A DNA stretch of 33,147 nt from Parcubacteria group bacterium 21-54-25. Its GTDB lineage: Bacteria > Patescibacteriota > Minisyncoccia > Phycocordibacterales > Phycocordibacteraceae. Made by a program: the position numbers and the translations under genes. The notes under the pieces were generated by a model, which did no database searches, was not told where the DNA came from, and worked only from the letters and a program-made list of their open reading frames with translations. Position 1 is the first letter of the stretch; each line of letters begins with the position of its first letter. This document shows, piece by piece, positions 6,629-31,730 of this stretch. The stretch lies in contig NCBJ01000008.1 in the NCBI GenBank assembly GCA_002255585.1, forward strand, positions 1 through 33,147, in the 5' to 3' direction.

Positions 6629-7349
6629 ATTGCTTTGTGTCGTCTGGATCTGTGACGGCATGCGTGGGGATGCCGGTGGCGATGACCACCTCATCGTTTC
6701 CTCCTGGGCGTAGCTCATCACCGACGTACAGCATGTGCGCAATGGGAATAGAAAGATATTCAGCAAGCCGGTGCACACCATAGGCCTTATCGATTCCTTT
6801 TTTTGTTACGTCGATAGTCGTGGTGCCACCGATTCGTACCTCATAGTTTGGCAGAAGTGGTGCCAACGCGGCCCGCAGTGCCTCACGCTTTGTGCGGCCC
6901 GGATCCCATTTCTGTTTTGCTTCGATAGGCGCTTTTTGTCCGAGCACTGAAAGCGATACTTCTGCACCGCGGAACTCTATTCGCTCACCGTACGCTGGTT
7001 CTGAGAAATCAATAACGTGTACCTGTTCGTTTGCCTGGTGCATGGCGCGTTCGATAGTGTTTGCTTCGTCTTGCGAAAGCGCCTCTTCATACACCTGTTT
7101 CCATACACCGTTCTCATACACGTAGAGTGCTGCACCAGAGGTAGGGAGGAGATACAACCGTTCCAGTGGTGCGTGGGGTGGCAGACGGTCGGCAACTTGG
7201 GTCTGTAGCTGATCACATTTTCCACCGGAGGCAACCGCGACACGCGCTTTAGTCAGGAGTGCTGCGAGAGTGTGCGCCATTGCCGCATCGATCGGTTGCT
7301 TGCTCTTTGCAAGCGTTGTATCAAGATCAAAAATTATGCAATCAGGCAT
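6600..7349 (-). CDS. HAD-superfamily (IIB type) sugar-phosphatase or phosphomutase-like protein
   Basis: About 249 residues. The N terminus MPDCIIFDLDTTLA has the HAD motif I DxD (Asp8, Asp10) but with Thr-Thr where DGT is usual. The C-terminal YVGDELRPGGND is motif IV. The intervening cap and the lysine region fit Cof/sucrose-phosphatase-like HAD-IIB enzymes, which act on sugar phosphates; eukaryotic phosphomannomutase is also in this group. ATG 7349 is chosen because it places motif I at the N terminus and overlaps the end of the upstream GH130 gene by 8 bp, so it belongs to that mannoside operon. Either Man-1-P dephosphorylation or Man-1-P/Man-6-P interconversion would fit the context; the choice is inference. 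Confidence 0.78.
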   Translation of the reverse strand: MPDCIIFDLDTTLAKSKQPIDAAMAHTLAALLTKARVAVASGGKCDQLQTQVADRLPPHAPLERLYLLPTSGAALYVYENGVWKQVYEEALSQDEANTIERAMHQANEQVHVIDFSEPAYGERIEFRGAEVSLSVLGQKAPIEAKQKWDPGRTKREALRAALAPLLPNYEVRIGGTTTIDVTKKGIDKAYGVHRLAEYLSIPIAHMLYVGDELRPGGNDEVVIATGIPTHAVTDPDDTKQFIESLLKHA

Positions 7350-9276
7350 GAGGATCGCTGGCTTCCTTGAGCGCATCGAGCACATGCGAAAGACTTCCGG
7401 TAGCGACACCAGTCACACGATCACCACCGCCATAGTAGACAAACAACGTGTCATCACGCACAACACCACCGCACGAGAAGACAACATTATGTACCTCGCC
7501 GTCGCGTTCATACGGTTCAACAGGCTCAAGGATAGGGTCGGCCGTGCGTGCAAGGAGTGCTGTTCCTGTGGGGTCAAGGAGTACTGCGCCGAGGCGGTAG
7601 CGTGCCCGATGCGAAACACCATGGTAAATAAGGAGCCACCCACCATCGACAGGAATCGGTGGGCCAGCAATGCCAACTTTTGCTGCGTCCCACATGCCTT
7701 CGCGCGGACCTAGGATGTTTATGCAGCGCGATATACGTTTATCGAGCGAAAGATCGGGGAGCAAATCAGCACATATATGGTTCGAAATACGGTGATACAG
7801 CAAATAATTTCCATTTATAGTCGCTGGCAATAATCCCAAATCCTTGTCATCAACATTGTCTGGGGTAACAAGATGCGGCATCGACCACTGATCGAATCGG
7901 CGGGCGCGGAAATCGTCGAGCGATAGGGAGGTGAGCGCTCCGTGCGGAGGATGCACGCCGTCATAGGCGGTATAGGTCATATAGAGACGATCATTGATGA
8001 CAACCGCACGCGGATCTTCGCACCCAGAGTTGCCGTGCGGGCCGCCTTTTTTTTGTTCGAAATCAGCCCGAGGAATATATATTGGCGTATCAAGACGCTC
8101 ATCAATATGCATACCGTCTTGGGAGCGCGCGTACCCGACGACCGAAGTGTTGTCTTTCCCCATAGCGCGATACAGTAGGTGTATAGAACCATCGAGGTCG
8201 AATGCCGCAGTGTTAAACGCAGCAGTTTCTTCAAAACCAGATCCGCGCGGTTCCAGAATCGGGTTTTGGGCTGCACGGGTAAGCGTGCGTGCCGGACGAG
8301 ATGGGTCGAGCGCACGTAAGATGTCAGAAAGACGAGTCGTCGCTTTCGCACACACCGTGTCGGCGGCACCGTACCAGATATCGAGCGTATCATCAGCTAC
8401 AGTTGCTCCAGAAGGGAAGACGATATTGGGCACTAAGCCATAGCGTTCGTATATCTCCTCGGGCACGAGGAATGGATAGGTACGCGAGACAAGGCGTTGA
8501 GGGTTCTCGTTGTCAAGAATAGCTGCTTCAAGACCAAACGTGCGCCGATGTTCGTCGTAGAAATGTTGAATGTATGAATAAATGAGCAGCCAACCATGCT
8601 TAGTGCGAAGGGGTGTTGCACCCACCTCTATATGATCGTCGTCGGCGCGCCGCAATTCGGGGAGCGCGTGGCTTGGAAGCGTCGCGTGCCACCGTTGCCA
8701 GTACGCTGGGTCCCAAAAGTCCTCAATGCGCCGTGCGCACGCAATGCCGATAGTCGGACGCGGGTGCTCAGCCGTCCAATCGGTGTGTGCGGTGAGCATC
8801 AGGACGACATCACCACCAATGCGCTCCGGGAACAGTGTCGCTGCTTTCGCATTGAAAGGTGTAACCAGGTGTTTCTCTGTAAATTCATCTGGCGCGTCTC
8901 CAATAGCAACGCCGACTTTTATATTGTCGGGACCAAATGGAAAGCCACCAAGTGCCGTATAAAATGCGTACCAGCGCCCTTCGAAGAAAGTAACGCGCGG
9001 GTCCTCGCAACCGAACTGTTCCCAAGGTTCTACGGGCGCAATAACCTGTTTTCGTGAGTGGAAATGGACGCCATCTTCGGAAAAGGCCGTGCCGATGGTT
9101 GAGAGGCCAGAGTTCGGTGTCGTGAGCGCGTCGGGACTACCTACTGCGCGATAGTATATGCGCGTACCGTCTTCACTATGTAGTGCAGATGGGTTGTAGG
9201 TAGCGACTGCTTCCCACGGGTGTGCACGATCTGGGGAGAGTATCGGGTTATCGGTTTCGCGACGGATGACAAACAT
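7342..9276 (-). CDS. Double-domain GH130 protein, beta-mannoside phosphorylase-like
   Basis: 644 residues made of two consecutive GH130 five-bladed propellers, about 1-325 and 330-640. Each starts with an RxxxNPIL segment and each carries the hallmark GCEDPR, with its presumed catalytic Asp at residue 92 and residue 421. Each half ends with a YYGGGD/YGAAD-type blade followed by a VATG or AKATT segment. GH130 enzymes cleave beta-mannosides with phosphate to give mannose-1-phosphate (some are hydrolases). Usual members have one domain of about 300-350 residues, so the fusion is notable. There is no signal peptide, so it should be cytoplasmic. The gene overlaps the HAD gene by 8 bp. The substrate is unknown. 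Confidence 0.85.
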   Translation of the reverse strand: MFVIRRETDNPILSPDRAHPWEAVATYNPSALHSEDGTRIYYRAVGSPDALTTPNSGLSTIGTAFSEDGVHFHSRKQVIAPVEPWEQFGCEDPRVTFFEGRWYAFYTALGGFPFGPDNIKVGVAIGDAPDEFTEKHLVTPFNAKAATLFPERIGGDVVLMLTAHTDWTAEHPRPTIGIACARRIEDFWDPAYWQRWHATLPSHALPELRRADDDHIEVGATPLRTKHGWLLIYSYIQHFYDEHRRTFGLEAAILDNENPQRLVSRTYPFLVPEEIYERYGLVPNIVFPSGATVADDTLDIWYGAADTVCAKATTRLSDILRALDPSRPARTLTRAAQNPILEPRGSGFEETAAFNTAAFDLDGSIHLLYRAMGKDNTSVVGYARSQDGMHIDERLDTPIYIPRADFEQKKGGPHGNSGCEDPRAVVINDRLYMTYTAYDGVHPPHGALTSLSLDDFRARRFDQWSMPHLVTPDNVDDKDLGLLPATINGNYLLYHRISNHICADLLPDLSLDKRISRCINILGPREGMWDAAKVGIAGPPIPVDGGWLLIYHGVSHRARYRLGAVLLDPTGTALLARTADPILEPVEPYERDGEVHNVVFSCGGVVRDDTLFVYYGGGDRVTGVATGSLSHVLDALKEASDPHA

Positions 9277-10067: not shown

Positions 10068-11249
10068 CTAACGTACTCCTACTCTTTCGAGCGATTGAGG
10101 AGCGAGCTGGGGTGTTTCTTCGTGAATGAGCGCATTCAAAAAAGTGGCGAGTGGTGCGGTCGCCACTGCCACCACCTTGTCACCGCCGCCGTAGTACACA
10201 TAGAGAGTGCCGTCCAGTACGACAGCGCCACAGGCATATACAATGCCGGGTTTCCCGTCGTTTTCGTACGCAGCATCCGGTTCCAGAACTGGCTGGGGCG
10301 AGCGGTGGAGGATCTCGGTTGGATCTTCAAGATCAAGAAGCATCGCCCCGAGCTTGTAGCGATCGGGCTCATTAGGATCCATGGCGTGATAGAACAGCAA
10401 CCAGCCGAGCTGCGTTTTAACCGGCGGCGGCCCGGCGCTGCGTATACGATAGTGCCAGGTGATGGGCGTGTTGGGGAGAGCGTGCGGGTCTGGGCTCTGG
10501 AAGGACTGCAGGGAAGGATCAAATGTCTCTATACTATCTACGTATTCGATACGGACGTGTGTAGCGTCTACGCCACTAATGCTGTGCAGGACCGCAACTT
10601 TTCCGTGGATTTTCTCTGGGAAGAGCACCCAATTTTTGTGCCGTTCTCCAGCACGCGAAAGTAAGCACGGCACGGCCCAGTTCCAACGCCCCGCAACAAG
10701 ATCTTCTTCTGAGAGTGACGTAACAGCGACACGAATGAAGTCCCAGCCATCAAACGCGTTGTAGGTAACGTATACGCGCCCATCAATTTTCGCTACGCGC
10801 GGATCCTCGCAGCCGCCCCAGCTGCCGCCTGATGGATAAAGCACGGGGTTATACCGTCGTTGGTGTGCCGCTACATTACGTGGATTCGGTGCCGCATACA
10901 CAGGATAGGGAAGACGCACGTCAAACGTCAGCCCATCTTTTGACGACGCGTATCCCAAGCGCGATACCCCGTCCATACCGAGAGCACGATAGAACAGGTG
11001 CACGCGTCCTCCGGCAACAAGCGCTGCGGGATTTAATACCGCAGCCGCTTCCCATGCGTTTGGACGTGGCGCAAGAATAGGGTTTTTCAAGAAACGCGTA
11101 AGTGAGAGCTCAGGTCGACGCGTCCATTTCGCAATCTGCGTTGAGACACGCTCACGTATTGACGAGGAAAAAAGTACGCCAACAAGGGCACCCGCAATAA
11201 ATACGGAAAGAAAAAGCGCGAGCAAGTTCGCTATGAGTATAAATATCAT
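10068..11249 (-). CDS. Membrane-anchored GH130 protein
   Basis: 393 residues. Residues 1-28 form a single hydrophobic N-terminal helix (starting MIFILIANLLALFL), followed by a basic stretch (RERVSTQIAKWTRR) consistent with a cytoplasmic-side anchor. A single GH130 propeller follows from about residue 52, with NPILAPRPNAWE, YRALGMDG, GCEDPRVA (presumed catalytic Asp149) and a closing YYGGGDKVVAVAT blade. It is most like the second half of the neighbouring two-domain protein. The start overlaps the cupin stop (ATGA, 11246-11249), so the pair is translationally coupled. Membrane attachment of a GH130 enzyme suggests action on a lipid-linked or envelope mannoside; that is inference. Orientation relative to the membrane is not certain. 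Confidence 0.85.
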   Translation of the reverse strand: MIFILIANLLALFLSVFIAGALVGVLFSSSIRERVSTQIAKWTRRPELSLTRFLKNPILAPRPNAWEAAAVLNPAALVAGGRVHLFYRALGMDGVSRLGYASSKDGLTFDVRLPYPVYAAPNPRNVAAHQRRYNPVLYPSGGSWGGCEDPRVAKIDGRVYVTYNAFDGWDFIRVAVTSLSEEDLVAGRWNWAVPCLLSRAGERHKNWVLFPEKIHGKVAVLHSISGVDATHVRIEYVDSIETFDPSLQSFQSPDPHALPNTPITWHYRIRSAGPPPVKTQLGWLLFYHAMDPNEPDRYKLGAMLLDLEDPTEILHRSPQPVLEPDAAYENDGKPGIVYACGAVVLDGTLYVYYGGGDKVVAVATAPLATFLNALIHEETPQLAPQSLERVGVR

Positions 11250-11672: not shown

Positions 11673-13184
11673 TTAAGCAAAACCAGGGAAGTAGTCCGTC
11701 TTGATACGCGAAGCAGGGACATCAAGGTCGCGTAAGGTGGTGTGCATTCCAGCGACAAGTCCGTGGGGACCAGAAATGTAGAATGTGCGGTCCAGAAAGT
11801 CAGGTACTGCCGTGCGTATTGCCGCGGCATCAATTCGTGAAATACGTGTTGCGGTTGTTGGATCTTTCGAAATTGCGTGTACGGTGCGTACCCCAAGTGC
11901 CGTCGCGCGCTCAAGGAGCTCGCGGTACGCCACTTCGGCAGTGGTGTTGTTTGCATAGAGAAGCACTATATCGCGCGCCTCATTTTCGTTAAGCATGTGC
12001 CGAATCATGCTCACAAAGGGGGTGATGCCAATGCCGCCGGCGATGAAGACCAGTTTCCGGTGTTTGTCGCGCGGCAAGGTGAAGTCCCCAGCAAGTTGCG
12101 ATGCAATAAGCTGGTCGCCGCGCGCAAGTGAACCAAGGGTTTTTTTAAACGAGCTTGCGGGGTCGTAAAATTTTACACCAAGCCGTACGGCAGAATCTGA
12201 AGGGGCGGATGCGATGGTGAAATAGCGTCGTACGCCGCGGCTGTCGTACGCTTCATGGGGGAGCGTCCATTCAAGATATTGCCCAGACTGAAAGGCAAGT
12301 GGCCGGTTGGGAGCGAACACAAATTCGTACATGCTTGGGGATAGGCGGATGCGGTTGGTCAAAGTGAGCACAAGCTTTGTTTTTGGACTCATTGCATAGG
12401 AAAGGAGGTTGCCTGCGAGCAGCGCAAGCTCGGGGGTGAGATACGTACCCCCAACATGGAGATCTGGATAGAACAACAAGCCAACAAAAACGCCGTAGAG
12501 TATGCGCAGCGCACGTGTCGGTGGCGTTGTGAGCGGCTCAGTGAGCATTACGCTTGCAAAGAATATCGTTGGCACAAGCACAACGGCATTAGTGAGACCT
12601 TGGAAGAGGCCGATGCCGTGCACCAGTGCGGAAAAAACAATACCGCTACCGGCAGTGACGAGAAAGGCGCTTACCAAATCAAATCGTTTGATTTTGCGTA
12701 CCACGAGGAAGCCGCCGATGAGGACGAAAGGAAGCATGGTGCTCGTGCCGATCCACCATGACGCCGACTGGCCAAGGATAAGCGCTGTGGCCGCAACGCC
12801 AAACGCTGCCGGATTGAAAAGGTGCTTGTCGCGGATAGCAAAAATATATTTCGACGCTATCGCCCAACCGGTTGCCCAAAAGGCAAGTGTTAAAAACGCC
12901 TGATCTGTAAAAGACGCGGGTGGAGATATTATAAGCGCGAGTATAAGTGCGGTGATATATGTGGATTCTGGATTCGTTGGCGCATCAAAGGCGTAGGCGA
13001 AAACCATGTTGAAAACAAAAGCTCCGAGGGCGATGAGCGCCACCGACCAAGCTAAGTGGAGTACAGAGAAGGGGAGCCAACCAAAAGCGCTTACTACACC
13101 AGCGACAAATAGAAGTGCAAGCAGCTCATACAGCACGAGCCGATACATAGTTATGCGATTTAAAAAAGTATCAATAAAGCTCAT
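11673..13184 (-). CDS. Fusion of RnfD/NqrB-like membrane domain and ferredoxin-NAD(P)+ reductase domain
   Basis: 503 residues. Residues 1 to about 270 contain 8-9 hydrophobic helices of the RnfD/NqrB/UreT-like fold, including VMLTEPLTTPPTRALRILYG, close to the conserved 'TDPVT.P.TR.GR..YG' stretch of RnfD. The SGAT flavinylation site of true RnfD/NqrB is not visible. From about residue 275 a flavodoxin-reductase (FNR) module follows, with the FAD motif RRYFTIAS, the NAD(P)-ribose motif GGIGITPF and a C-terminal YFPGFA. It should pass electrons from NAD(P)H via FAD across or into the membrane. Its ATG overlaps the ApbE stop (13181-13184), and the exported FMN-binding protein is the next gene upstream. 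Together they look like a minimal extracytosolic flavin electron-transfer chain. Confidence 0.85.
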   Translation of the reverse strand: MSFIDTFLNRITMYRLVLYELLALLFVAGVVSAFGWLPFSVLHLAWSVALIALGAFVFNMVFAYAFDAPTNPESTYITALILALIISPPASFTDQAFLTLAFWATGWAIASKYIFAIRDKHLFNPAAFGVAATALILGQSASWWIGTSTMLPFVLIGGFLVVRKIKRFDLVSAFLVTAGSGIVFSALVHGIGLFQGLTNAVVLVPTIFFASVMLTEPLTTPPTRALRILYGVFVGLLFYPDLHVGGTYLTPELALLAGNLLSYAMSPKTKLVLTLTNRIRLSPSMYEFVFAPNRPLAFQSGQYLEWTLPHEAYDSRGVRRYFTIASAPSDSAVRLGVKFYDPASSFKKTLGSLARGDQLIASQLAGDFTLPRDKHRKLVFIAGGIGITPFVSMIRHMLNENEARDIVLLYANNTTAEVAYRELLERATALGVRTVHAISKDPTTATRISRIDAAAIRTAVPDFLDRTFYISGPHGLVAGMHTTLRDLDVPASRIKTDYFPGFA

Positions 13185-13936
13185 GGATAGGTGTATTGGT
13201 CGAACCCTTGTGTAAAAAATGCACGTTGATCCTGAGTAATGGCATAGCCCTCATATCCGGACAGCGTCTCGATAAATGCTGGCCCCTGTTCGCCCATAGC
13301 AAATGCAGCAGTGGCGAACCGGTCAGCGTCATAGACAGTAGGCCCAATAACCGTGAGGCTCACAAACGGTGTTTCAACTGGCGCATTGGTTTTTGGGTTG
13401 TAAATGTGGCGCCCACGAATGTACGTACCGGATGTCGCAACGCCGTGCCCTTTTGGATACACTACTTTCGCTATTTTTCCGGGCGCAAACGGATGACGAA
13501 TACCTACAGACCACGGTAGCGCATCACTATTGGTCCCGCCCGTAGCAACGTCGCCACCCGCGTCAATACAAAAACGCGTAATCCCGCGTTCATGCGCGCG
13601 TGCCGCTGCCTCGTGCACCGCCCACCCCTTCACGATGCCGGAGGGATCGATGGTGCCGTTTGGCGTACGAATGTCAAAATATCCATGGGATTCCTCATAG
13701 GTTATCTGTGCGCGCTGATAGATGTCCTGCACTTCCGCAGAGGCTTCCGCAAGCAACAACTCCCCGCGGCTTATGCGTGAGACAGGGCTTTCTGGTTTGT
13801 AGGGGCTAAATATTTCATCGACATGATGGAAATAGGAAAAGAGGTCTTCAAGTGCTTCTTTTGTTGCTCCGCTGTCAAGCAATTCGATAGTAATCGGCAT
13901 GCCCATGCTTACGCGCGTTTCTTTGAAGCGGGTCAT
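13181..13936 (-). CDS. apbE: FAD:protein FMN transferase ApbE
   Basis: 251 residues. ApbE transfers FMN from FAD to a Thr in (S/D)GAT-type motifs of extracytosolic proteins, using Mg2+. Family markers visible are an N-terminal MGMPITIEL, FDIRTPNGTIDPSGIVKGWAV (with the conserved Lys) and FCIDAGGDVATGG, the metal and flavin-binding AGGD. The last part (YDADRFATAAFAMGE) is also typical (DALAT-like). Most ApbE proteins are about 300-340 residues and exported; here no signal peptide or lipobox is seen and the protein is shorter, so a cytoplasmic location is possible. It is 20 bp downstream of its likely substrate and overlaps the reductase fusion gene. Confidence 0.9.
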   Translation of the reverse strand: MTRFKETRVSMGMPITIELLDSGATKEALEDLFSYFHHVDEIFSPYKPESPVSRISRGELLLAEASAEVQDIYQRAQITYEESHGYFDIRTPNGTIDPSGIVKGWAVHEAAARAHERGITRFCIDAGGDVATGGTNSDALPWSVGIRHPFAPGKIAKVVYPKGHGVATSGTYIRGRHIYNPKTNAPVETPFVSLTVIGPTVYDADRFATAAFAMGEQGPAFIETLSGYEGYAITQDQRAFFTQGFDQYTYP

Positions 13937-13956
13937 AACACGTTGCGTAATAAAAA

Positions 13957-14523
13957 CTACGCAGCCTTTGCGAGCGCGGAGGATAGCGACTGCTGGAACC
14001 CGCCGCTAGTTTCTGTTGCGCCGGAAACAGTATTAACGTTCGCGTTTTGTGTCGAAAGCGCCTCTTGGCGCAGGAGAGGCATCGCGTAGTTATTAACCAT
14101 AATGGAATAGCCGCGGTCGTTCGGATGTGATAGGAACTGCACGTCGGCAATAGCCCCATCTTTAATGGTCGCCTGTACTTGGACGTACCCATAGTACACA
14201 TACACGCTTGATCCGGTATAAGTACCGTCCACGTACGGACCCTTGCGCGTTTGCTGGGCTGGCGGAGCTACTGATGCACGTGTGGGTGTGGCCGCGGCAG
14301 TTTGTGTGGTGGTCTTTGAGGAAGCGGAAACCGGTGTGTTTTGTGGTGGAGGCGCCGTCGAAGCCGCAGGAGCATTTTGTGTTTGTGACGAGGACGTCGT
14401 CTGGAGCGTGTTGGTCGATGGAGAGATGGTTGTTGCCACCTGCGCCGCACCACTTCCCGGTCGGAAAAGCGTATACAATGCAAAGACAGCAATAAAGGCG
14501 GTTGAGGAAACAATTTTTTTCAT
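13957..14523 (-). CDS. Exported FMN-binding domain protein (ApbE substrate)
   Basis: 188 residues. The N terminus is an export signal or membrane anchor (MKKIVSSTAFIAVFALYTLF). A linker of about 65 residues rich in Thr, Ser, Ala, Pro and Gln follows. The FMN_bind domain runs from about 90 to 185, beginning GPYVDGTYTG and ending with VNTVSGATETSGGF. In this family FMN is attached as a phosphoester to the Thr of SGAT, here Thr170. The domain is the same as in NqrG/RnfG and in stand-alone surface flavoproteins. Its long low-complexity linker would let the flavin domain reach away from the membrane. It heads the ApbE/reductase gene set. Confidence 0.88.
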   Translation of the reverse strand: MKKIVSSTAFIAVFALYTLFRPGSGAAQVATTISPSTNTLQTTSSSQTQNAPAASTAPPPQNTPVSASSKTTTQTAAATPTRASVAPPAQQTRKGPYVDGTYTGSSVYVYYGYVQVQATIKDGAIADVQFLSHPNDRGYSIMVNNYAMPLLRQEALSTQNANVNTVSGATETSGGFQQSLSSALAKAA

Positions 14524-17867: not shown

Positions 17868-18884
17868 ATGAAACTTATATACATTGCACAGGAGGAGTGG
17901 GAGCAGGGTTATTTGAAAGACAAGCTTGCCGCGGCTGGTTGGGAGACGGCGTTCTACGCGGCCGGTGATAGCGCGGCACTTGCGGGCGATCCCGATGCCG
18001 AAGCGCTTTCGATATTTATCACCACGCACATTGGCGCAGCCGAACTCGATAAGTTCCCAAAGCTAAAACTCATCGCCACGCGCTCAACGGGGTTTGATCA
18101 TATCGACTTGGAGGAGGCAAAGAAGCGCGGCGTCGCCATTGCCAGCGTCCCTTCGTACGGTATTAACACGGTTGCCGAATTTGCGTTCGCGCTCATCCTT
18201 GCGCTCGCGCGACGCATTTGTGAAGCGCACAACCGCGTGACTAATACCGGCTCATTTTCACAGGACGGGCTGCGCGGTTTCGACCTCGCAGGTAAGACAA
18301 TCGGTATTGTGGGCACTGGCCACATTGGTGTACACGCTATCAAGATGGCCAAGGGGTTCGATATGAACGTACTCGCATTCGACGCGTTTCAGAAAGAAGG
18401 GCTCGACAAGGAGCTTGGTTTTACCTATGTGCCGCTCAACGAGCTTCTCAATACATCCGACATCGTCACTCTTCATGTGCCATACAACCCCCACACACAT
18501 CACCTCATTAACAAAGACAACATTCACGAATTTAAGAAAGGCGCGTATCTCGTGAACACCGCTCGCGGTGCCGTGGTGGAAACCGAGGCACTTGTGGCCG
18601 GGCTTATGGACAAGACACTCGCTGGTGCTGGACTCGACGTACTTGAGGAGGAGGGCGATATGCAGGACGAAGCGCGTCTTTTCTCACTCCCACACCCGCG
18701 CGAGGAAGAGCTTAAAACCACACTTGCCAACCACTACCTCATTGATCATCCACGCGTACTCGTGACCGCACATGTTGCGTTTGATACGCAAGAGGCCATA
18801 GAACGTATTCTCGATACTACGCTTGAGAATGTCGTTGCATTTGGCAAGGGTGCACCACAAAACGTGCTCGCGCCCAAGGTGTAG
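17868..18884 (+). CDS. ldhA: NAD-dependent D-lactate dehydrogenase (2-hydroxyacid dehydrogenase family)
   Basis: 338 residues. It reduces pyruvate to D-lactate with NADH, regenerating NAD+ in fermentation. The nucleotide-binding loop is GTGHIG (149-154), with an acidic residue at the end of the second strand (LAFD) favouring NAD. The catalytic set is Arg233 (NTARGAVV), Glu262 (LDVLEEEG) and His302 (TAHVAFDT); the HVAFDT context is typical of LdhA-like enzymes. Length matches the family. It is a single gene with its own putative -10. It may work with the FAD-linked oxidase at 149-1819 in D-lactate cycling; that link is inferred. Confidence 0.9.
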   Translation: MKLIYIAQEEWEQGYLKDKLAAAGWETAFYAAGDSAALAGDPDAEALSIFITTHIGAAELDKFPKLKLIATRSTGFDHIDLEEAKKRGVAIASVPSYGINTVAEFAFALILALARRICEAHNRVTNTGSFSQDGLRGFDLAGKTIGIVGTGHIGVHAIKMAKGFDMNVLAFDAFQKEGLDKELGFTYVPLNELLNTSDIVTLHVPYNPHTHHLINKDNIHEFKKGAYLVNTARGAVVETEALVAGLMDKTLAGAGLDVLEEEGDMQDEARLFSLPHPREEELKTTLANHYLIDHPRVLVTAHVAFDTQEAIERILDTTLENVVAFGKGAPQNVLAPKV

Positions 18885-23483: not shown

Positions 23484-26400
23484 TTATTTATCCCACACGT
23501 CGGCGAATAGTTCGGCCTGCTTCAGGACGGTCTCGGTAGCGATTGCTTGCTTGTCGGGCGGATAGCCATACTGGTTGAGCGTGCGCTTCACCAGGACACG
23601 CAGACGTGCCTGTACATTCTCGCGAATAGTCCAGTCAATCGAGGTGTTCTTGCGCACCTTATCCACGAGGACACGAGCGAGGTCGCGCAACTCGTCGTCA
23701 CCGAGCACTTCGCGAGCACTCTCGTTTTCAGCGAGTGCGTCGTAGAACGCTATCTCGTCATCAGAGAGACCGAGACCCTTGCCGCGCTCGTCTTCCTGAT
23801 GGATCTGCTTGGCCAGCTCGATAAGCTCTTGGATGACCTCGGAGGCAGTGAGAAGGTTGTTCTGGTATTTCTTGATAGTCTTGTCGAGCATCTCCGAGAG
23901 CTTCTTGCCCTGGATACCGTTGCGACGTAGGCGCAGTTTTATTTCATCGTTCAAGACCTTCCGCAAAAGTTCCATCGCGAGGTTGCGGTGCTTCATTCCT
24001 TGCACCTCGGCGAGGAACTCGTCGGAGAGCACGGACAGGTCGGGCTTCTGCACACCCGCTGCGGCAAAGATGTCCACGACACCCTCAGCCACGAGTGCCT
24101 GGTCGACGATTTGGCGGATTGCCGAGCCGATGTTCTCGGTACCAAGTGCACCTTCTGGCTCAAACTTTACGAGTCGTGCCTTGATTGCCTGGAAGAACGC
24201 AATCTCGTCGCGTATCTCCATTGCAGCTTCACTCGGCACTGCGAGCGCGAACGATTGCGAGAGCGCCATCACTTCTCTGATGAATCGCTCCTTGGCACTC
24301 GTCCGTTTCTTTTCTTTGCCCGACGCACCTCCATCGTCTTGGTCTTGTGCGAGGATGTGCTCCTGAGCTTCGAGGATGATGCCGAGTTTCTCTCGCGTAT
24401 CAGCGGCGAAGTAGCGTTGATAGTCGAAGCCATGGAACATCTGCTTCACGACCTCGTACTTCTCGAGCATTATCTCGATGGCCTTATCTTGCGTGACGGT
24501 CGGGTCGCCCTTGCCGCCACTTTCTGTGTAGATGGCGAGCGCTTTTTGTAGGTCGGAAGCAAAGCCGATGTAGTCCACGATAAGGCCTCCTGGCTTGTCT
24601 TTGTAGACGCGATTGACGCGAGCGATGGCCTGCATGAGGTTATGTCCGCGCATGAGCTTGTCTATGTACATCGTGTGTAGGCACGGAACGTCGAAGCCCG
24701 TGAGCCACATGTCTCGCACGATAACGAGTTGGAGCGGATTAGCAGGGTCCTTGAAGCGCTCAGCGAGTTTGCGACGGTTCTGCTTGTTCGTGTGGTGCTG
24801 CTGGAACTCGCTCGGGTCACTCGAACTTGCTGTCATCACGACTTTGATTTTGCCCTTATCCAAATCGGGACTGTGCCACTCGGGACGGAGCGCAACGATT
24901 TCCTCGTACAGCTCCACCGCGATACGGCGGCTCATCGCGACAACCATCGCCTTGCCTGTGAAGGCCTCCTGACGCTTCTCGAAATGTTCCACGAGGTCAT
25001 GTGCAACTTCTTTGACGCGCTCACGATTGCCGACGATAGCTTCGAGCTGCGCCCATTTCGCTTCGGCCTTCTCCTTCGCAGAAAACTCGATACCCTCAGC
25101 GACTGCTTCCACGTCGTCGTCCATCTCGGCCTTCTTATCGTCGGGCAGGTGAATCTTCACCAGGCGGCTCTCGTAGTAAATAGGCACGGTAGCTTTGTCC
25201 TCCACGGCGCGCTGGATGTCGTACACATCGAGATACTTACCGAAGACGGCGAGCGTGGACTTATCGTCGCTCTCAATGGGCGTGCCCGTGAAGCCGATAA
25301 ACGAGGCGTTAGGGAGCGCATCACGCAGATACTTGGCGTTGCCGTAGCGTGTGATGGCTTCGTCATCCTTGAAGACTGTCCGCGCGGCGAAGCCGTACTG
25401 GCTGCGGTGCGCCTCGTCCGCAATGACGACGATGTTCTTGCGGTCGGACAGCTCGTCGTATGTTTCGCCCCCATCCTCGGGGAAGAACTTCTGGATGGTG
25501 GTGAAAATGATGCCGCCGCCCGCTGTCTGCAAGAGCTTCTTCAAGTGTTCGCGACTTTCGGCCTGCACTGGCTCCTGTCGCAATAGGCCGCGAGCTGCGG
25601 CAAACGTATCAAAAAGCTGGTCGTCGAGGTCATTGCGGTCGGTGAGCACCACGACCGTCGGGTTGTCGAGCGCAAGTACGACCTTGCCCGTGTAAAACAC
25701 CATCGAGAGCGACTTGCCCGACCCTTGTGTGTGCCAGACGACACCGATCTTGCGCTCGCCGTGTTCGGCGGTCGCTTTCGTGGTCGAGGTGATAGCTTTG
25801 TTCACTACGTAGTATTGGTGGTACTGCGCAATCTTCTTGATAGTCTCAACAATGGTTTGCCCCGTCTTCGCGTCTTCGCGGCGTGTCTTCTCGAAGACCG
25901 TAAAGCTGCGCATCACGTCGAGCAGCACTGCGGGTGGCAGCATCTCCTCAACGAGCACCTGCATCTGCGGAGTGGTCTTCTCCTTCTCACGTTTGCCGTC
26001 GGGCGCACGCCAGATAGCGAAGCGCTCCCACTCGGTCGTGAGTGCTCCTGCTTTGGCGTCTATGCCGTCAGACGCCACCAGGACGCTGTTGTAGACGAAT
26101 AGTTGCGGAATAGCTCGCTTGTAGTTGTCGAGCTGCATGTGCGCTTTGCGTACGGTCGCGTTTTCGTCGGTCGGGTTCTTCAACTCAATAACAACGAGCG
26201 GCAGACCATTGACGATGAGCACCACGTCAGGGCGCTTGCTAGTGTTGTCGTGGAGCACCGAGAACTGGTTGGCCACTACGAGGTCGTTACTTTGCGGATC
26301 TGCGAAGTCGATGATGCGGACGATCTCTCCGCGCTGCTCGCCGTCGGCATAGGAAGATACGCTCACACCATCGGTAAGCATCCGCTGGAACTCCTCGTTT

Positions 26401-26642
26401 GCCTCCACCAAGTGAGGGGAGGAAGCTAGTGCGAGAACTTTCTTCACGGCATCTTCTCGTGCCTCTGCGGGCACGCCTGGATTGAGGCGCTCCACCGCGT
26501 CTCGTAGGCGCATCTGCAGCACCACGTCGTGCAGGTCGCCGCGCTCGGCTTCCTGTATCTCGGGCGCTAGGTACGTGTAGCCCTGCTGCTCCAGTGCCTC
26601 TATAGCCCACTTCTCTATGTCGCTTTCGTAGATTCGGTTCAT
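23484..26642 (-). CDS. hsdR: Type I restriction enzyme, motor/nuclease subunit HsdR
   Basis: 1052 residues. HsdR translocates DNA with ATP and cuts it when the site is unmethylated. The N-terminal PD-(D/E)xK nuclease is visible as RPDVVL (Asp139) and VIELKNP (Glu153, Lys155). The superfamily 2 helicase motor follows with Walker A HTQGSGKS (Lys310), DEAH box VVIADEAH (409-412), motif [10 protein letters not shown] (450-456) and, further on, the motif VI region [12 protein letters not shown]. The C terminus is helical, for binding the methylase core. All key residues are present, so it should be active. It starts 2 bp after the HEPN-like gene's stop, in one operon with hsdM and hsdS. Confidence 0.95.
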
Positions 26643-26644
26643 AC

Positions 26645-27451
26645 CTAAAATAGTGTCTTTGATACTTTTCTTACGCCAGTAACCAAATCCTCCACCTCTT
26701 GTTCTTTCGGTTCTCTGCCTGTTTTGTGGTCGCAGATGTTACGGATGTCAGCGAGGAACTGCACATTCCTCCACACTGGCACATCTATCACATTGGCGTT
26801 CTTTAGAGCGTCGTTATAGTCCGCGATGGTGGGCCTCTTTTTTTTGATGGAAATACTGTGTGTCGAACACACTTCACGTAAGTGTGACTCTAGAACAACA
26901 CCAGCTAAAGCACCAGCCGCACGGAGAAACCCTTTTTTCTTCAACTCATCCGAGGCGTCCAACTCATCATCAAACAAGTCAGCTTGCAGGAGTGCGCGAA
27001 TGTCAAAAAGCGAGCCATCAAAGGTCTTTTGCAGAGTTTCAATTATTTTCACTTGCTGTCGGAACTTTGGAATGGCTGCATCCGCCCCGACCACCTTCTC
27101 TCCAGAGTAGCTGTGAGTTAGGTTCAATCCGTTTAGACAGTCCTGGATGGTGTAGTTCTCGTAGTTTATGTCGTTTTTCTTGCGAGTTTTCTCTGGACGA
27201 TAGTACGCAACAAAGTCGTCAACTCGCGAAGGTAGAATCTGTCGCAATACTTCCAATGCCTCTGAATACCATGTCTGGTATTCTTCGCTGAAGTGTCCAA
27301 CTGCCTTTTTTGTATTAGTGATGGCCGCCTTGTCCAGACCCGACTGTGCCAGCTCTTCCTCGTCGAGATAGTCGATTATCATTCGGTAATAAAGGACATG
27401 ACCTTTGTCGACTAGCTTTTTGATGTCTGCTTTGTATTTTTCGTTTTTCAT
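26645..27451 (-). CDS. HEPN-like protein embedded in the hsd operon
   Basis: 268 residues. The N-terminal two thirds are helical, with no recognised enzyme motif ([29 protein letters not shown]). The C-terminal part, from about residue 175, has [18 protein letters not shown] and then [17 protein letters not shown] followed by a long helix. RNICDH fits the HEPN RNase consensus (RNxxxH, that is R-x4-6-H), and the helix-plus-motif layout also recalls DUF4145-like HEPN proteins. HEPN proteins of this sort cut RNA in toxin-antitoxin, abortive-infection and CRISPR systems. The ATG overlaps the hsdS stop (ATGA, 27448-27451) and the stop is 2 bp from hsdR, so expression is tightly coupled to the restriction enzyme. 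RNase activity is inferred. Confidence 0.75.
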
Positions 27452-28632
27452 ACCCGTATTTCGCCACTCATCAGTTGTGGCAGGAGAGCGTCACGCAAGC
27501 TCGGCAGAAGGCCTAGCTGGGAGTTGTTCGCGATGACTTTGTTGAAGATGGGTGCTAGGAGTGCGTCGGCGTCTGATAGCGTCTTTTCGTCTGGAACCAC
27601 AACTTCGGCTTGGTCGAGATGATGGCGCTGGATGTGCCCCATTGTCGTTGCTTTATTCGCAGCTATCGTGCGGAAGTCGGGCAGATGATGCAGTAGCCAC
27701 AAGTAAACGAACCATTGTGGGTACTTGTCTGACGAAACCTTGAACAGATGCTGGTTCAACGCTCCCTTTCCGTAACGCCAGAGCACCACCTCCAAGCTAC
27801 CCGACCAAGAGAAAAGAAGGTCGCCATCTTCGATGATGTATTGCGCAGGGACTCCAGCATTGACCTTATCTGTCGCTTCAGTGATACCTGCCTTCAACTC
27901 GCGTATCTTTATTGCTGGGAGCGATGGCTCTCCGTCGATGGCGGGATACTTCTGTAAAGCGATACCGTTCAGAAAGTCGGCAATGTCAGTCAGCCCAGCC
28001 ATTTGCCATCCATCTGGCAGAGAGCCGTCGGCCGTCGGCTTCACGAACCACTCGTTGAAAATCGCCTGGGCGATCTGCTCCAGCGTCTCGTTCTGTTTCC
28101 GCAGCAGCTCGATTTTGTCATCCAAGCTGGAGAGCACGGCCGCGATGGAGCGTTGCTCCTCCAACGACGGCAGAGGTATCTCAAGGCCTGACAGCTGCTG
28201 AAGATTTATGTTCGCCTGTACAGATTGCGCGACGATGGAGTTGGTGAACCTGACGACCTTCTTATCCTGAAGCAGAAAGGCAAGAAAGCGCGGGGAGACC
28301 TTCCCAACGTCAGGTCTTACAATCGCCACCGCCTGATTTGTATTAGCTGGTAGAACATCGTTGTTTACGAGCGCAGAGCGTCCTATGGCTCCAGCGATTG
28401 AAAAAAGGATGTCGTCTTTTTCAAGCACGGAACGCGAGAGTGCTTGGTGAGTTTCGTTAGTTATGTGTGCGAACTTTTGCGGGAGCAGTCTGCCATCGTC
28501 AGTAATGGATTCGACTTTTACAAAGTTGACTCCCTCGGGCACAAACTCGTATCCGAGCGTCGTCGGTGTCGTACCTTTCGTAATCTTGGTCGAGACGTCA
28601 CCAAGCGTCGCTTCTTCCCATTCGGCTGCCAT
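27448..28632 (-). CDS. hsdS: Type I restriction-modification specificity subunit HsdS
   Basis: About 394 residues. There are two target recognition domains. The first runs from EWEEATLGDVSTKITKGTTP to about 150 and the second from DGWQMAGLTDIADFLNG to about 345. Each is followed by a helical conserved region: LPSLEEQRSIAAVLSSLDDKI with ETLEQIAQAIFNEWFV, and the final [20 protein letters not shown]. Two half-sites give a bipartite recognition sequence that cannot be read here. ATG 28632 is chosen because family members start close to an EWxxxxLGD segment; ATG 28644 would add four residues and overlap the KAP gene by 11 bp. Confidence 0.93.
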   Translation of the reverse strand: MAAEWEEATLGDVSTKITKGTTPTTLGYEFVPEGVNFVKVESITDDGRLLPQKFAHITNETHQALSRSVLEKDDILFSIAGAIGRSALVNNDVLPANTNQAVAIVRPDVGKVSPRFLAFLLQDKKVVRFTNSIVAQSVQANINLQQLSGLEIPLPSLEEQRSIAAVLSSLDDKIELLRKQNETLEQIAQAIFNEWFVKPTADGSLPDGWQMAGLTDIADFLNGIALQKYPAIDGEPSLPAIKIRELKAGITEATDKVNAGVPAQYIIEDGDLLFSWSGSLEVVLWRYGKGALNQHLFKVSSDKYPQWFVYLWLLHHLPDFRTIAANKATTMGHIQRHHLDQAEVVVPDEKTLSDADALLAPIFNKVIANNSQLGLLPSLRDALLPQLMSGEIRV

Positions 28633-28633
28633 G

Positions 28634-30109
28634 TTAGCGATCATAATCTCGATGGTTATCTTTTATGTATTTGCCTGTACGGACGTACTCAATAAGAGCA
28701 TCATAAAAGAAGCGCGCTCGATGCGCTGGAGAGCCCTCTATTGAAAAACCGCGAGCGTTCAGGTCAGCGGGTGTTTTGAAGGGATACTTGCCCCACATGA
28801 CTGTCTGGTCTCCCTTCAAGTTTCCATTCGTTATCAGGTCTTTCATCATTGCACCGATGTACGCTTCATACGGAGTCCGTGTGCGCTCCTCATCGTCCTG
28901 GATGCTGGCGCGTATGGCCTCAAGTTGTTTTACGAATGCGCCAGGTGCACCGCCAAAAATAGCCACCAACACTTGGATACCTACGTCGACAAGATGATGG
29001 AAGCTGTCCCTAAACGGGTCGTTCGAATAGACCCCTTTTTGAAGTTCTTGGAAGAGATGGTTCAACGGCCTATACAGTTGACGTAGATTTAGTTTATTTA
29101 TAGCGAGTGAGCGAGTGAGCACTTCGCTCAACAAAAGTTTTATGTAGCCATTATCGCCTATAGCATCCTTGATGCTTGGTTCTGCATACATGACTTGCTT
29201 CACAAGCTCCGAGACACGCTCCGCAATGTGCTTGGTGCCGAGGTGGTACGGACGGATAGTAAAGAACTTATCGAAGTATCCCGCGAAATCCGTATCAGCT
29301 CCGTACTTGTGATGGAAGATGTTCTTGATGTTGTCCACGTCTCCAACGATAACTACATGGTCGAAACCGAACTTGTTCTCGTCATCATCGTTCATGTGCA
29401 CTGACATCACGTTCAAAATGCGGAAGATGTGCTCTGGGTCAACACGATCAAAATCATCCAGGACGAGAACGCCGCGCTTTTCAGTGCCTTTGAGCTCCGC
29501 GATTTTTCCTCGCAGAAGGTGGCCGATGTAGTCGGTGGCAACTGGGTCGCCCTCGGCCTCTATCTTTGCCAGGAAGGTTTCAACAGCTCCCTTATCTCCC
29601 GAAAGGTATTCTTTCTTGAAAGCTTGAAACTCTTTATCGAGTTCGAGCAGGTCGTTCAACGGCCGACCGAGTTTGCTAATGGCCTGAATGAACGGGTCTG
29701 GCGAAAGTGAGAGAACATCGCCAGTAGCAGATACGGAAGATTGCAGAAATCCGCGGAAAAGGTCGCGGTCTTTTGCAAAAGCGCCGAACAGCTTGAGCCA
29801 GCCAGATGCACCTTTGGCGTCGTTTGTTGTAAACGCGTCAGGATACTTTTTCAGTAACTCAACGAGGACGTCGTACTTGAGAAGTTCAACTATGTTTTCA
29901 GTGCTCGCAAGCTGATACCGAATCGGAAAGAGGTGGTACACATCATACTTATCGCCATTATCGGCAAAGAACTGTTGCAGGAAGTAGGTTTTGCCAATCC
30001 CAAAACGACCAGAGAAGAAGATGCGTTTATTATCTGGGGCCGCGAGAAACCGCTCGAAATCTGCCTTCGGCGCATCAATCGGTATCTGATTTTCTTCCGT
30101 CGTAGCCAT
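28634..30109 (-). CDS. KAP-type P-loop NTPase in the hsd operon
   Basis: 491 residues. Walker A is FSGRFGIGKT (Gly34 to Thr41). Walker B is GVLVLDDFDRVDP (Asp218, Asp219), with a following arginine as in KAP and other STAND-like NTPases. HVVIVGDVDNI and YFDKFFTIRPYHL match the sensor region of KAP P-loop proteins. Unlike many KAP members, no transmembrane insert is seen between Walker A and B, so it should be soluble. The C-terminal 190 residues are helical without known motifs and may be an effector or sensor domain. It lies 3 bp after hsdM and abuts hsdS, so it belongs to the restriction operon. KAP-like ATPases linked to restriction loci are known; its role here is not established. Confidence 0.82.
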   Translation of the reverse strand: MATTEENQIPIDAPKADFERFLAAPDNKRIFFSGRFGIGKTYFLQQFFADNGDKYDVYHLFPIRYQLASTENIVELLKYDVLVELLKKYPDAFTTNDAKGASGWLKLFGAFAKDRDLFRGFLQSSVSATGDVLSLSPDPFIQAISKLGRPLNDLLELDKEFQAFKKEYLSGDKGAVETFLAKIEAEGDPVATDYIGHLLRGKIAELKGTEKRGVLVLDDFDRVDPEHIFRILNVMSVHMNDDDENKFGFDHVVIVGDVDNIKNIFHHKYGADTDFAGYFDKFFTIRPYHLGTKHIAERVSELVKQVMYAEPSIKDAIGDNGYIKLLLSEVLTRSLAINKLNLRQLYRPLNHLFQELQKGVYSNDPFRDSFHHLVDVGIQVLVAIFGGAPGAFVKQLEAIRASIQDDEERTRTPYEAYIGAMMKDLITNGNLKGDQTVMWGKYPFKTPADLNARGFSIEGSPAHRARFFYDALIEYVRTGKYIKDNHRDYDR

Positions 30110-30112
30110 GTT

Positions 30113-31675
30113 TTATAAGTCGAACCCAACCTTCTTCAACTGCTTCGCAATCTCGGCGTTGAGCTGCTCCTCCTCGGCCATCTGCGACTTCAGTGTCGAG
30201 GTGAGGCGCTTCATCTTTTCATCAAACGGCTCGCCATCGTCGGCGACGGCAGCCGCACCGACATAGCGGCCAGGAGTGAGGACGTATTTGTGCTTTTGGA
30301 TTTCGGGGAGCGCGGCCGACCTACAGAAGCCCTTCACGTCCTCGTACTTGCCGTCTTTGCTGCGCCATTCGTGATACGTTTGAGCTATTTTCTGCACGTC
30401 TTCGTCGGTGAACTCGCGGTGTGTGCGGTCGACGAGGTGTCCCATTTCCGAAGCGTCGATAAAAAGCACCTCGCCCGTGCGCTTACGGTCACCGTTGCCG
30501 AGGCGCTTGCGCGAGATGAACCAGAGGCACGCGGGGATACCTGTGTTATAGAAAAGCTGCTTGGGGAGCGCGACGATACAATCCACAAGGTCGGCATCCA
30601 CGATGTTCTGGCGGATTTCTCCCTCGCCGCTTTGATTGGACGAGAGCGAGCCGTTTGCGAGTACCATCGCCATCACGCCCTTCGGCGCGAGGTGATAAAT
30701 CATGTGCTGCATCCATCCGAAGTTGGCGTTGCCCGACGGCGGCATGCCGTACTGCCAGCGCGGGTCGTTCTTCACGATGTCCCAGCCCCAGTCATCCTGA
30801 TTGAACGGCGGATTGGCGAGGATGTAGTCGGCCTTTAGGTCGGGGTGTGCGTCTTTGAGGAATGAGCCTTCGTTGTTCCACTCGACCTGCGAGCCGTCGA
30901 TGCCGCGAATGGCGAGGTTCATCCGCGCGAGGCGGTAGGTGGTGTGGTTGCTCTCTTGGCCGAAGACGGAGATGTCGTCGATGCGGCCGCGGTGCGAGAG
31001 CACGAACTTCTCGCTCATCACGAACATGCCGCCCGATCCGCACGCAGGGTCGTACACACGACCTTTGTGCGGCTCAATCATGTCGACCATCAGCTCGACG
31101 ATAGAGCGGGGCGTGTAGAACTGGCCGCCTTTCTTGCCCTCGGCGGACGCGAACTGTCCGAGAAAGTATTCATAAACACGACCGAGGATGTCCTTCGACT
31201 TCGCCGCCTCGTCACCGAGCGCGATGTTACTAATGAGGTCGATAAGTGCACCGAGTGCGAGCTTGTCGATGTTCGGCGATGCAAAAACCTTCGGGAGGAT
31301 ACTCTTGAGTGTCGGGTTGTGCTTCTCGATGGCATCCATCGCAGCATCGAGGTCTTTACCGATAGATGGTTGCTTCGCGCGAGAGTGGAGGTGCGTCCAT
31401 CGCGCTTCCTGCGGTACCCAGAAGACATTCTCGGCGCGGTACTCATCAGGGTCTTCGGGGTCGGCTCCTGCGTAGTCCGCCTTACCCGACGAGAGCTTCT
31501 CGTGCATCACCTCGAAGCTATCGGAGATGTATTTCAAAAAAATAAGACCGAGGACAATGTGCTTGTACTCGGCTGCGTCAATGTTTTTGCGAAGTTTGTC
31601 AGCGGCAGAAAAGAGCTGGCCTTCTAGGCGAGCGTTTTGGCCGTTCTTTTCCGTGGAGTCATTCTTCATTTTCAT
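30113..31675 (-). CDS. hsdM: Type I restriction-modification DNA methyltransferase HsdM
   Basis: About 520 residues. HsdM methylates adenine N6 in the recognition site using S-adenosylmethionine. The N-terminal helical domain has [30 protein letters not shown], the family signature. The SAM motif I is [10 protein letters not shown] and the catalytic motif IV is [21 protein letters not shown] is also diagnostic. The frame could begin at GTG 31699, but ATG 31675 (or 31669) is preferred: a TAGAGT -10-like element (31690-31695, minus) lies 14 nt before it, and the core family start follows soon after. First gene of the restriction operon, divergent from a small acidic gene. Confidence 0.94.
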
Positions 31676-31730
31676 CTCATTTTGAGAAAACTCTACCACA
31701 TTTCGTCACTTTTTTCGAGTGTTTTTGAGG

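Follow-up and report, generated by a model that had tools for sequence, protein, structure and literature searches.

The closest described counterpart of the locus analyzed here is the "NQR/RNF-like" system, in which an NqrB/RnfD membrane domain and a PF00175 domain form one protein encoded within a flavinylation gene cluster (Meheust et al. 2021, PMC8238504). In the accessible text of that study, the system is found mainly in Actinobacteria and in CPR bacteria, and electrons are proposed to flow one way, with NAD(P)H as donor and an external FMN as recipient. The accessible text of a later study presents an AlphaFold-multimer model of the system with the same one-way flow from NAD(P)H to the outside and a membrane domain without a covalent-FMN site (Huang et al. 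2024, PMC11334425). A biochemical test of any NQR/RNF-like member was not found in the portions of the literature covered.

The window, that is, the whole stretch of DNA analyzed, comprises 33,147 nt of contig NCBJ01000008.1 from the assembly of Parcubacteria group bacterium 21-54-25 (GCA_002255585.1). The genome measures 0.84 Mb and is 99.5% complete, and statements made about it as a whole are based on family searches. Absence of ribosomal protein L30 is a mark of Patescibacteria/CPR; L30 (PF00327) is absent from this genome and present in 13 of 14 control genomes. The locus consists of three genes on the minus strand in the order FMN_bind, ApbE, and RnfD/NqrB-FNR fusion, with a 20-bp gap between the first two genes and a 4-bp overlap between the last two (Table 1), so that the ORF positions bear out the layout given in the preliminary description. 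The FMN_bind and ApbE genes are clustered with the fusion, and hydropathy places an N-terminal hydrophobic segment on the FMN_bind protein, in agreement with the NQR/RNF-like definition.

Table 1. Features of the three-gene locus, in window coordinates, with the evidence for each assignment.
Feature	Position	Strand	Evidence
FMN_bind protein, 188 aa	13957..14523	-	ORF; PF04205 36.9 bits (cut-off 22)
SGAT flavinylation motif, residues 167-170	14014..14025	-	sequence; homologue comparison
ApbE FAD:protein FMN transferase, 251 aa	13181..13936	-	PF02424 144.7 bits (cut-off 25.6)
Fusion, 503 aa, of an RnfD/NqrB-like membrane half and an FNR-like FAD/NAD(P)H half	11673..13184	-	ORF; profile searches
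Fusion membrane half, residues 1-268	12381..13184	-	PF03116 in homologues; hhalign to RsxD/RnfD; hydropathy, motifs
Fusion FNR half, residues 269-503	11676..12380	-	PF00175; PDB matches to NqrF; invariant columns

The membrane half of the window protein matches the Pfam family PF03116 (NQR2_RnfD_RnfE) with E 7e-5 and 22.7 bits, under the cut-off of 27.7. The NqrB/RnfD assignment of this sub-threshold protein is nevertheless settled by its homologues, 46 of 49 of which match PF03116 at E <= 0.01 (best E 4e-13) in the aligned set, and by an hhalign comparison in which the fusion-family profile aligns with RsxD/RnfD over about 200 columns (probability 95%, E 2e-8). The FNR half matches NAD_binding_1 (PF00175) with 51.2 bits against a cut-off of 22, as do all 49 homologues with the same family, and NqrF structures are its best PDB matches. 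A membrane domain of the RnfD/NqrB type joined to a reductase domain, as proposed in the preliminary description, agrees with the sequence. The motifs RRYFT (FAD), GGIGITPF (NAD(P)H), and FNPAAFG and MLTEP (both in the membrane half) are conserved or largely so. The covalent-FMN motif [ST]GA[ST] is absent from the window membrane half and occurs in the membrane half of only one of the 49 homologues; a motif check of the entire window fusion found no SGAT. A structure prediction of the fusion from a two-sequence alignment gave a pLDDT of 45.

The FMN_bind protein is composed of an N-terminal hydrophobic leader or anchor, an Ala/Pro/Thr-rich linker, and a C-terminal FMN_bind domain whose end segment carries SGAT. 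Thr170, correctly named in the preliminary description as the threonine of this motif, is the predicted FMN acceptor. The acceptor motif is present in 54 of 59 FMN_bind homologues (SGAT in 41 and SGAS in 13), and a strong hydrophobic segment precedes the domain in 57 of the 59. With leaders and signal segments judged from hydropathy and by eye, the homologues resemble exported proteins, having positive residues ahead of one N-terminal hydrophobic segment, and then a Pro/Thr/Ala-rich linker. The ApbE protein carries the motifs AGGD, HIYNP, and D-x3-T. Family searches of the genome found one FMN_bind protein and one ApbE, both those of the trio, and no RnfA/E or NqrD/E subunit (PF02508).

With a probability of roughly 0.78, we consider the trio to be a minimal NQR/RNF-like electron exporter that passes electrons from NAD(P)H through FAD, a membrane flavin, and an external FMN to an acceptor outside the cell, one-way and without an ion pump. 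In the cytosol, the FNR half would oxidize NAD(P)H using FAD, and the electrons would cross the membrane via a non-covalent flavin in the RnfD/NqrB-like half. They would then be taken up by an FMN that ApbE is predicted to place covalently on Thr170 of the FMN_bind protein; exported and anchored to the membrane, this protein would in turn deliver them to an acceptor outside the membrane. One-way flow without the Rnf/Nqr ion pump is suggested by the lack of any RnfA/E or NqrD/E subunit. This route, as sketched in the preliminary description, agrees with the sequence and with the accessible part of the published model (PMC11334425).

As far as the accessible text of the two papers goes (PMC8238504, PMC11334425), the trio shares with the NQR/RNF-like system the PF03116-PF00175 fusion, the exported FMN_bind protein, the clustered ApbE, the lack of a covalent-FMN motif in the membrane half, and the occurrence in CPR, with no essential difference. 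Given the definition of 2021 and the model of 2024, the trio is a further example of a published kind. The novelty implied in the preliminary description is therefore not supported, since the same fusion and gene set, CPR included, appear in the accessible text of the 2021 paper; the reading of the fusion as a hitherto undescribed architecture was likewise rejected, both papers having described it. What the locus shows is that a published electron exporter is widespread among Patescibacteria, a group generally described as having no electron transport chains. Three subsidiary results appear to be less well known, namely the leaderless ApbE, the lack of a canonical FAD synthase, and a trio on a Mesorhizobium plasmid; no discussion of the leaderless ApbE, the absent synthase, or rhizobial copies was found in the accessible text of either paper.

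Other known systems resemble the trio in part. Canonical Rnf and Na+-Nqr share the RnfD/NqrB-like membrane domain, the NqrC/RnfG-like FMN_bind partner, and the NqrF-like reductase domain. Unlike these complexes, the window has no RnfA/E or NqrD/E, its membrane and reductase parts are fused, its FNR half is without the 2Fe-2S domain that NqrF has, and ion pumping is not expected. The flavin-based extracellular electron transfer of Gram-positive bacteria, as in Listeria with PplA and FmnB, likewise pairs an FMN_bind protein at the cell surface with an ApbE-type transferase. Listeria FmnB flavinylates outside the membrane, according to the accessible text of PMC9973259, whereas the ApbE of the window is leaderless and electrons are supplied by the fusion. 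A Streptomyces cluster (L131) combines an SGAS FMN_bind protein bearing an N-terminal hydrophobic leader, a leaderless ApbE, and a membrane reductase of the ferredoxin-reductase family, one half of which binds FAD and NAD; the membrane half of this reductase looks like another, ferric-reductase-type protein.

The ApbE of the trio has no export signal although its FMN_bind target is exported, a point missing from the preliminary description. The MGMP motif begins at residue 11 in the window protein, and most of 47 close homologues have about 6-9 residues ahead of it, too few to form a leader; homologues with longer N-termini look like over-extended ORFs. Read in the same way, the ApbE of a genuine Nqr operon (L132) has a clear leader. 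Most ApbEs are secreted, and cytosolic ApbEs are known for cytosolic targets (2025 review). A transferase without a leader is at odds with flavinylation as it usually occurs, in the periplasm, and counts against the exporter reading of the trio. Since leaderless ApbEs also stand beside exported FMN_bind proteins in Streptomyces and Lactiplantibacillus, the pattern is a broad one, and the idea of a speciality of Patescibacteria was rejected. It is the most interesting open question of the system and a testable one: where do extracytosolic flavoproteins acquire their flavin?

A canonical FAD synthase (PF06574) was not found in this genome. A search of 52 genomes, the majority of which carry the trio, gave no match that reached the family cut-off; in this genome and 51 others, the absence of the enzyme coincides with the use of an FAD-dependent flavin transferase. 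A family search of the genome found no TatC. We can suggest, as a somewhat doubtful solution, that a cytosolic ApbE puts FMN on the FMN_bind chain while it is still unfolded, either ahead of Sec export or in the course of it, in cells seemingly without a canonical FAD synthase, so that the protein would be flavinylated inside and used outside. Flavinylation in the cytosol would make an FAD exporter unnecessary.

Full-length fusions occur in about a third of 148 relatives and, by a count from the listing, in about 60 of the 380 genomes sampled across the phylum. Both partner genes lie near the fusion in 50 of 82 loci, one partner in 17, and neither in 15, some of these loci ending at contig edges. 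The arrangement is thus not due to chance, and its commonest order is FMN_bind, ApbE, fusion; the survey of CPR genomes called for in the preliminary description accordingly finds the gene order recurring across the phylum. Some fusions may use other partners, given the 15 loci with neither gene nearby. No relative was found in the viral contigs scanned, and in the named genomes a single scan yielded one that is full-length, from a Bradyrhizobium MAG (L034). The whole trio is present in this MAG and on plasmid pB2-1-1 of the cultured Mesorhizobium sp. B2-1-1 (L129, NZ_CP083955.1). In a quick tree with few non-CPR sequences, the Mesorhizobium and Bradyrhizobium copies are nested within patescibacterial sequences, in a group (SH-aLRT 99) that also holds members of the window's genus. 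The placement makes a transfer of the trio between Patescibacteria and rhizobia likely, while a direction from patescibacterial sequences to rhizobia is only suggested, because the tree is quick and the non-CPR sampling thin. With the plasmid copy in Mesorhizobium, deletion and assay of the system become feasible in a cultured host.

Several loci depart from the common pattern. Four fusions without FMN_bind or ApbE (L064, L107, L118, L124) lie near a cupredoxin-like exported protein, possibly an alternative external electron carrier. Second fusion copies in three genomes (L059, L060, L061) are located near genes that, by a look at the sequence, are LexA-like, Y-family polymerase-like, and sigma-factor-like. 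A distant trio on a plasmid labelled Pseudomonas sp. DR48 (L130, NZ_CP081947.1), accompanied by argS- and lysA-like genes, looks misassigned and is perhaps actinobacterial.

What the module does for the cell can be read in several ways, and the neighboring genes that might point to an acceptor (dehydrogenase, VIT, and cupredoxin-like) are none of them decisive. It is possible, if tentative, that the module exports surplus electrons and so balances the NAD(P)H of a sugar-fermenting cell. In ten loci from the window's genus, a gene of the NAD(P)H-dependent D-2-hydroxyacid dehydrogenase family directly precedes the module and has the same orientation; these loci cluster in one part of the tree and may reflect a single event, and the dehydrogenase of the window (17868-18884) is 4.7 kb from the module on the opposite strand. 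An oxygen reductase is encoded in the genome as well: CyoA, CyoB, CyoC, and CyoE of a cytochrome bo3 oxidase pass the NCBIfam cut-offs (L137, contig C5 500-15500), with a cytochrome b gene nearby, and a family search found no cytochrome bd. The premise of a fermentative cell, presumed in the preliminary description, is weakened by these genes and is an unsafe one. Cyo-type oxidases are known in soil CPR, and quinone synthesis genes are reportedly absent from the CPR genomes that bear cyo (PMC8407418), which leaves the electron donor open. The module might then be the NAD(P)H-oxidizing entry to a short aerobic chain or oxygen-scavenging route ending at this oxidase, but such a role is quite improbable, since the cyo genes and the trio are on different contigs and since CyoA resembles quinol oxidase subunits, without a CuA-type motif, so that direct transfer from an external FMN is not expected.

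A module acting mainly as a reductase of ferric iron (or another metal), supplying reduced iron for uptake, is unlikely. A VIT-family gene adjoins the trio in the cultured Mesorhizobium, VIT genes lie near two further loci (L093, L040), an NRAMP-like gene, by a look at its sequence, adjoins another (L120), and six such clusters with VIT1 are given in the accessible text of PMC8238504. VIT genes are nonetheless near only 2 of the 82 sampled loci, and the scan of genes surrounding the window trio detected no member of an iron transporter family. The leaderless state of the close ApbE partners could also mean that the FMN_bind domain remains in the cytosol and that the module is not extracytosolic at all. 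We regard this as very improbable, because the homologues show the N-terminal segment and linker typical of exported proteins and because the homologous NqrC/RnfG domains are extracytosolic. The electron exporter remains the preferred reading of the trio.

Other genes of the window were noted. Downstream of the trio lie two genes of GH130, a mannooligosaccharide phosphorylase family (7342-9276 and 10068-11249), together with a mannose-6-phosphate-isomerase-like cupin. An FAD-linked oxidase (149-1828) and the D-2-hydroxyacid dehydrogenase mentioned above may form a redox pair for D-lactate or another 2-hydroxyacid. The type I restriction-modification genes HsdR, HsdS, and HsdM occupy positions 23484-31699, and between them are a KAP-family NTPase (28634-30109) and an ORF without a match (26645-27451).
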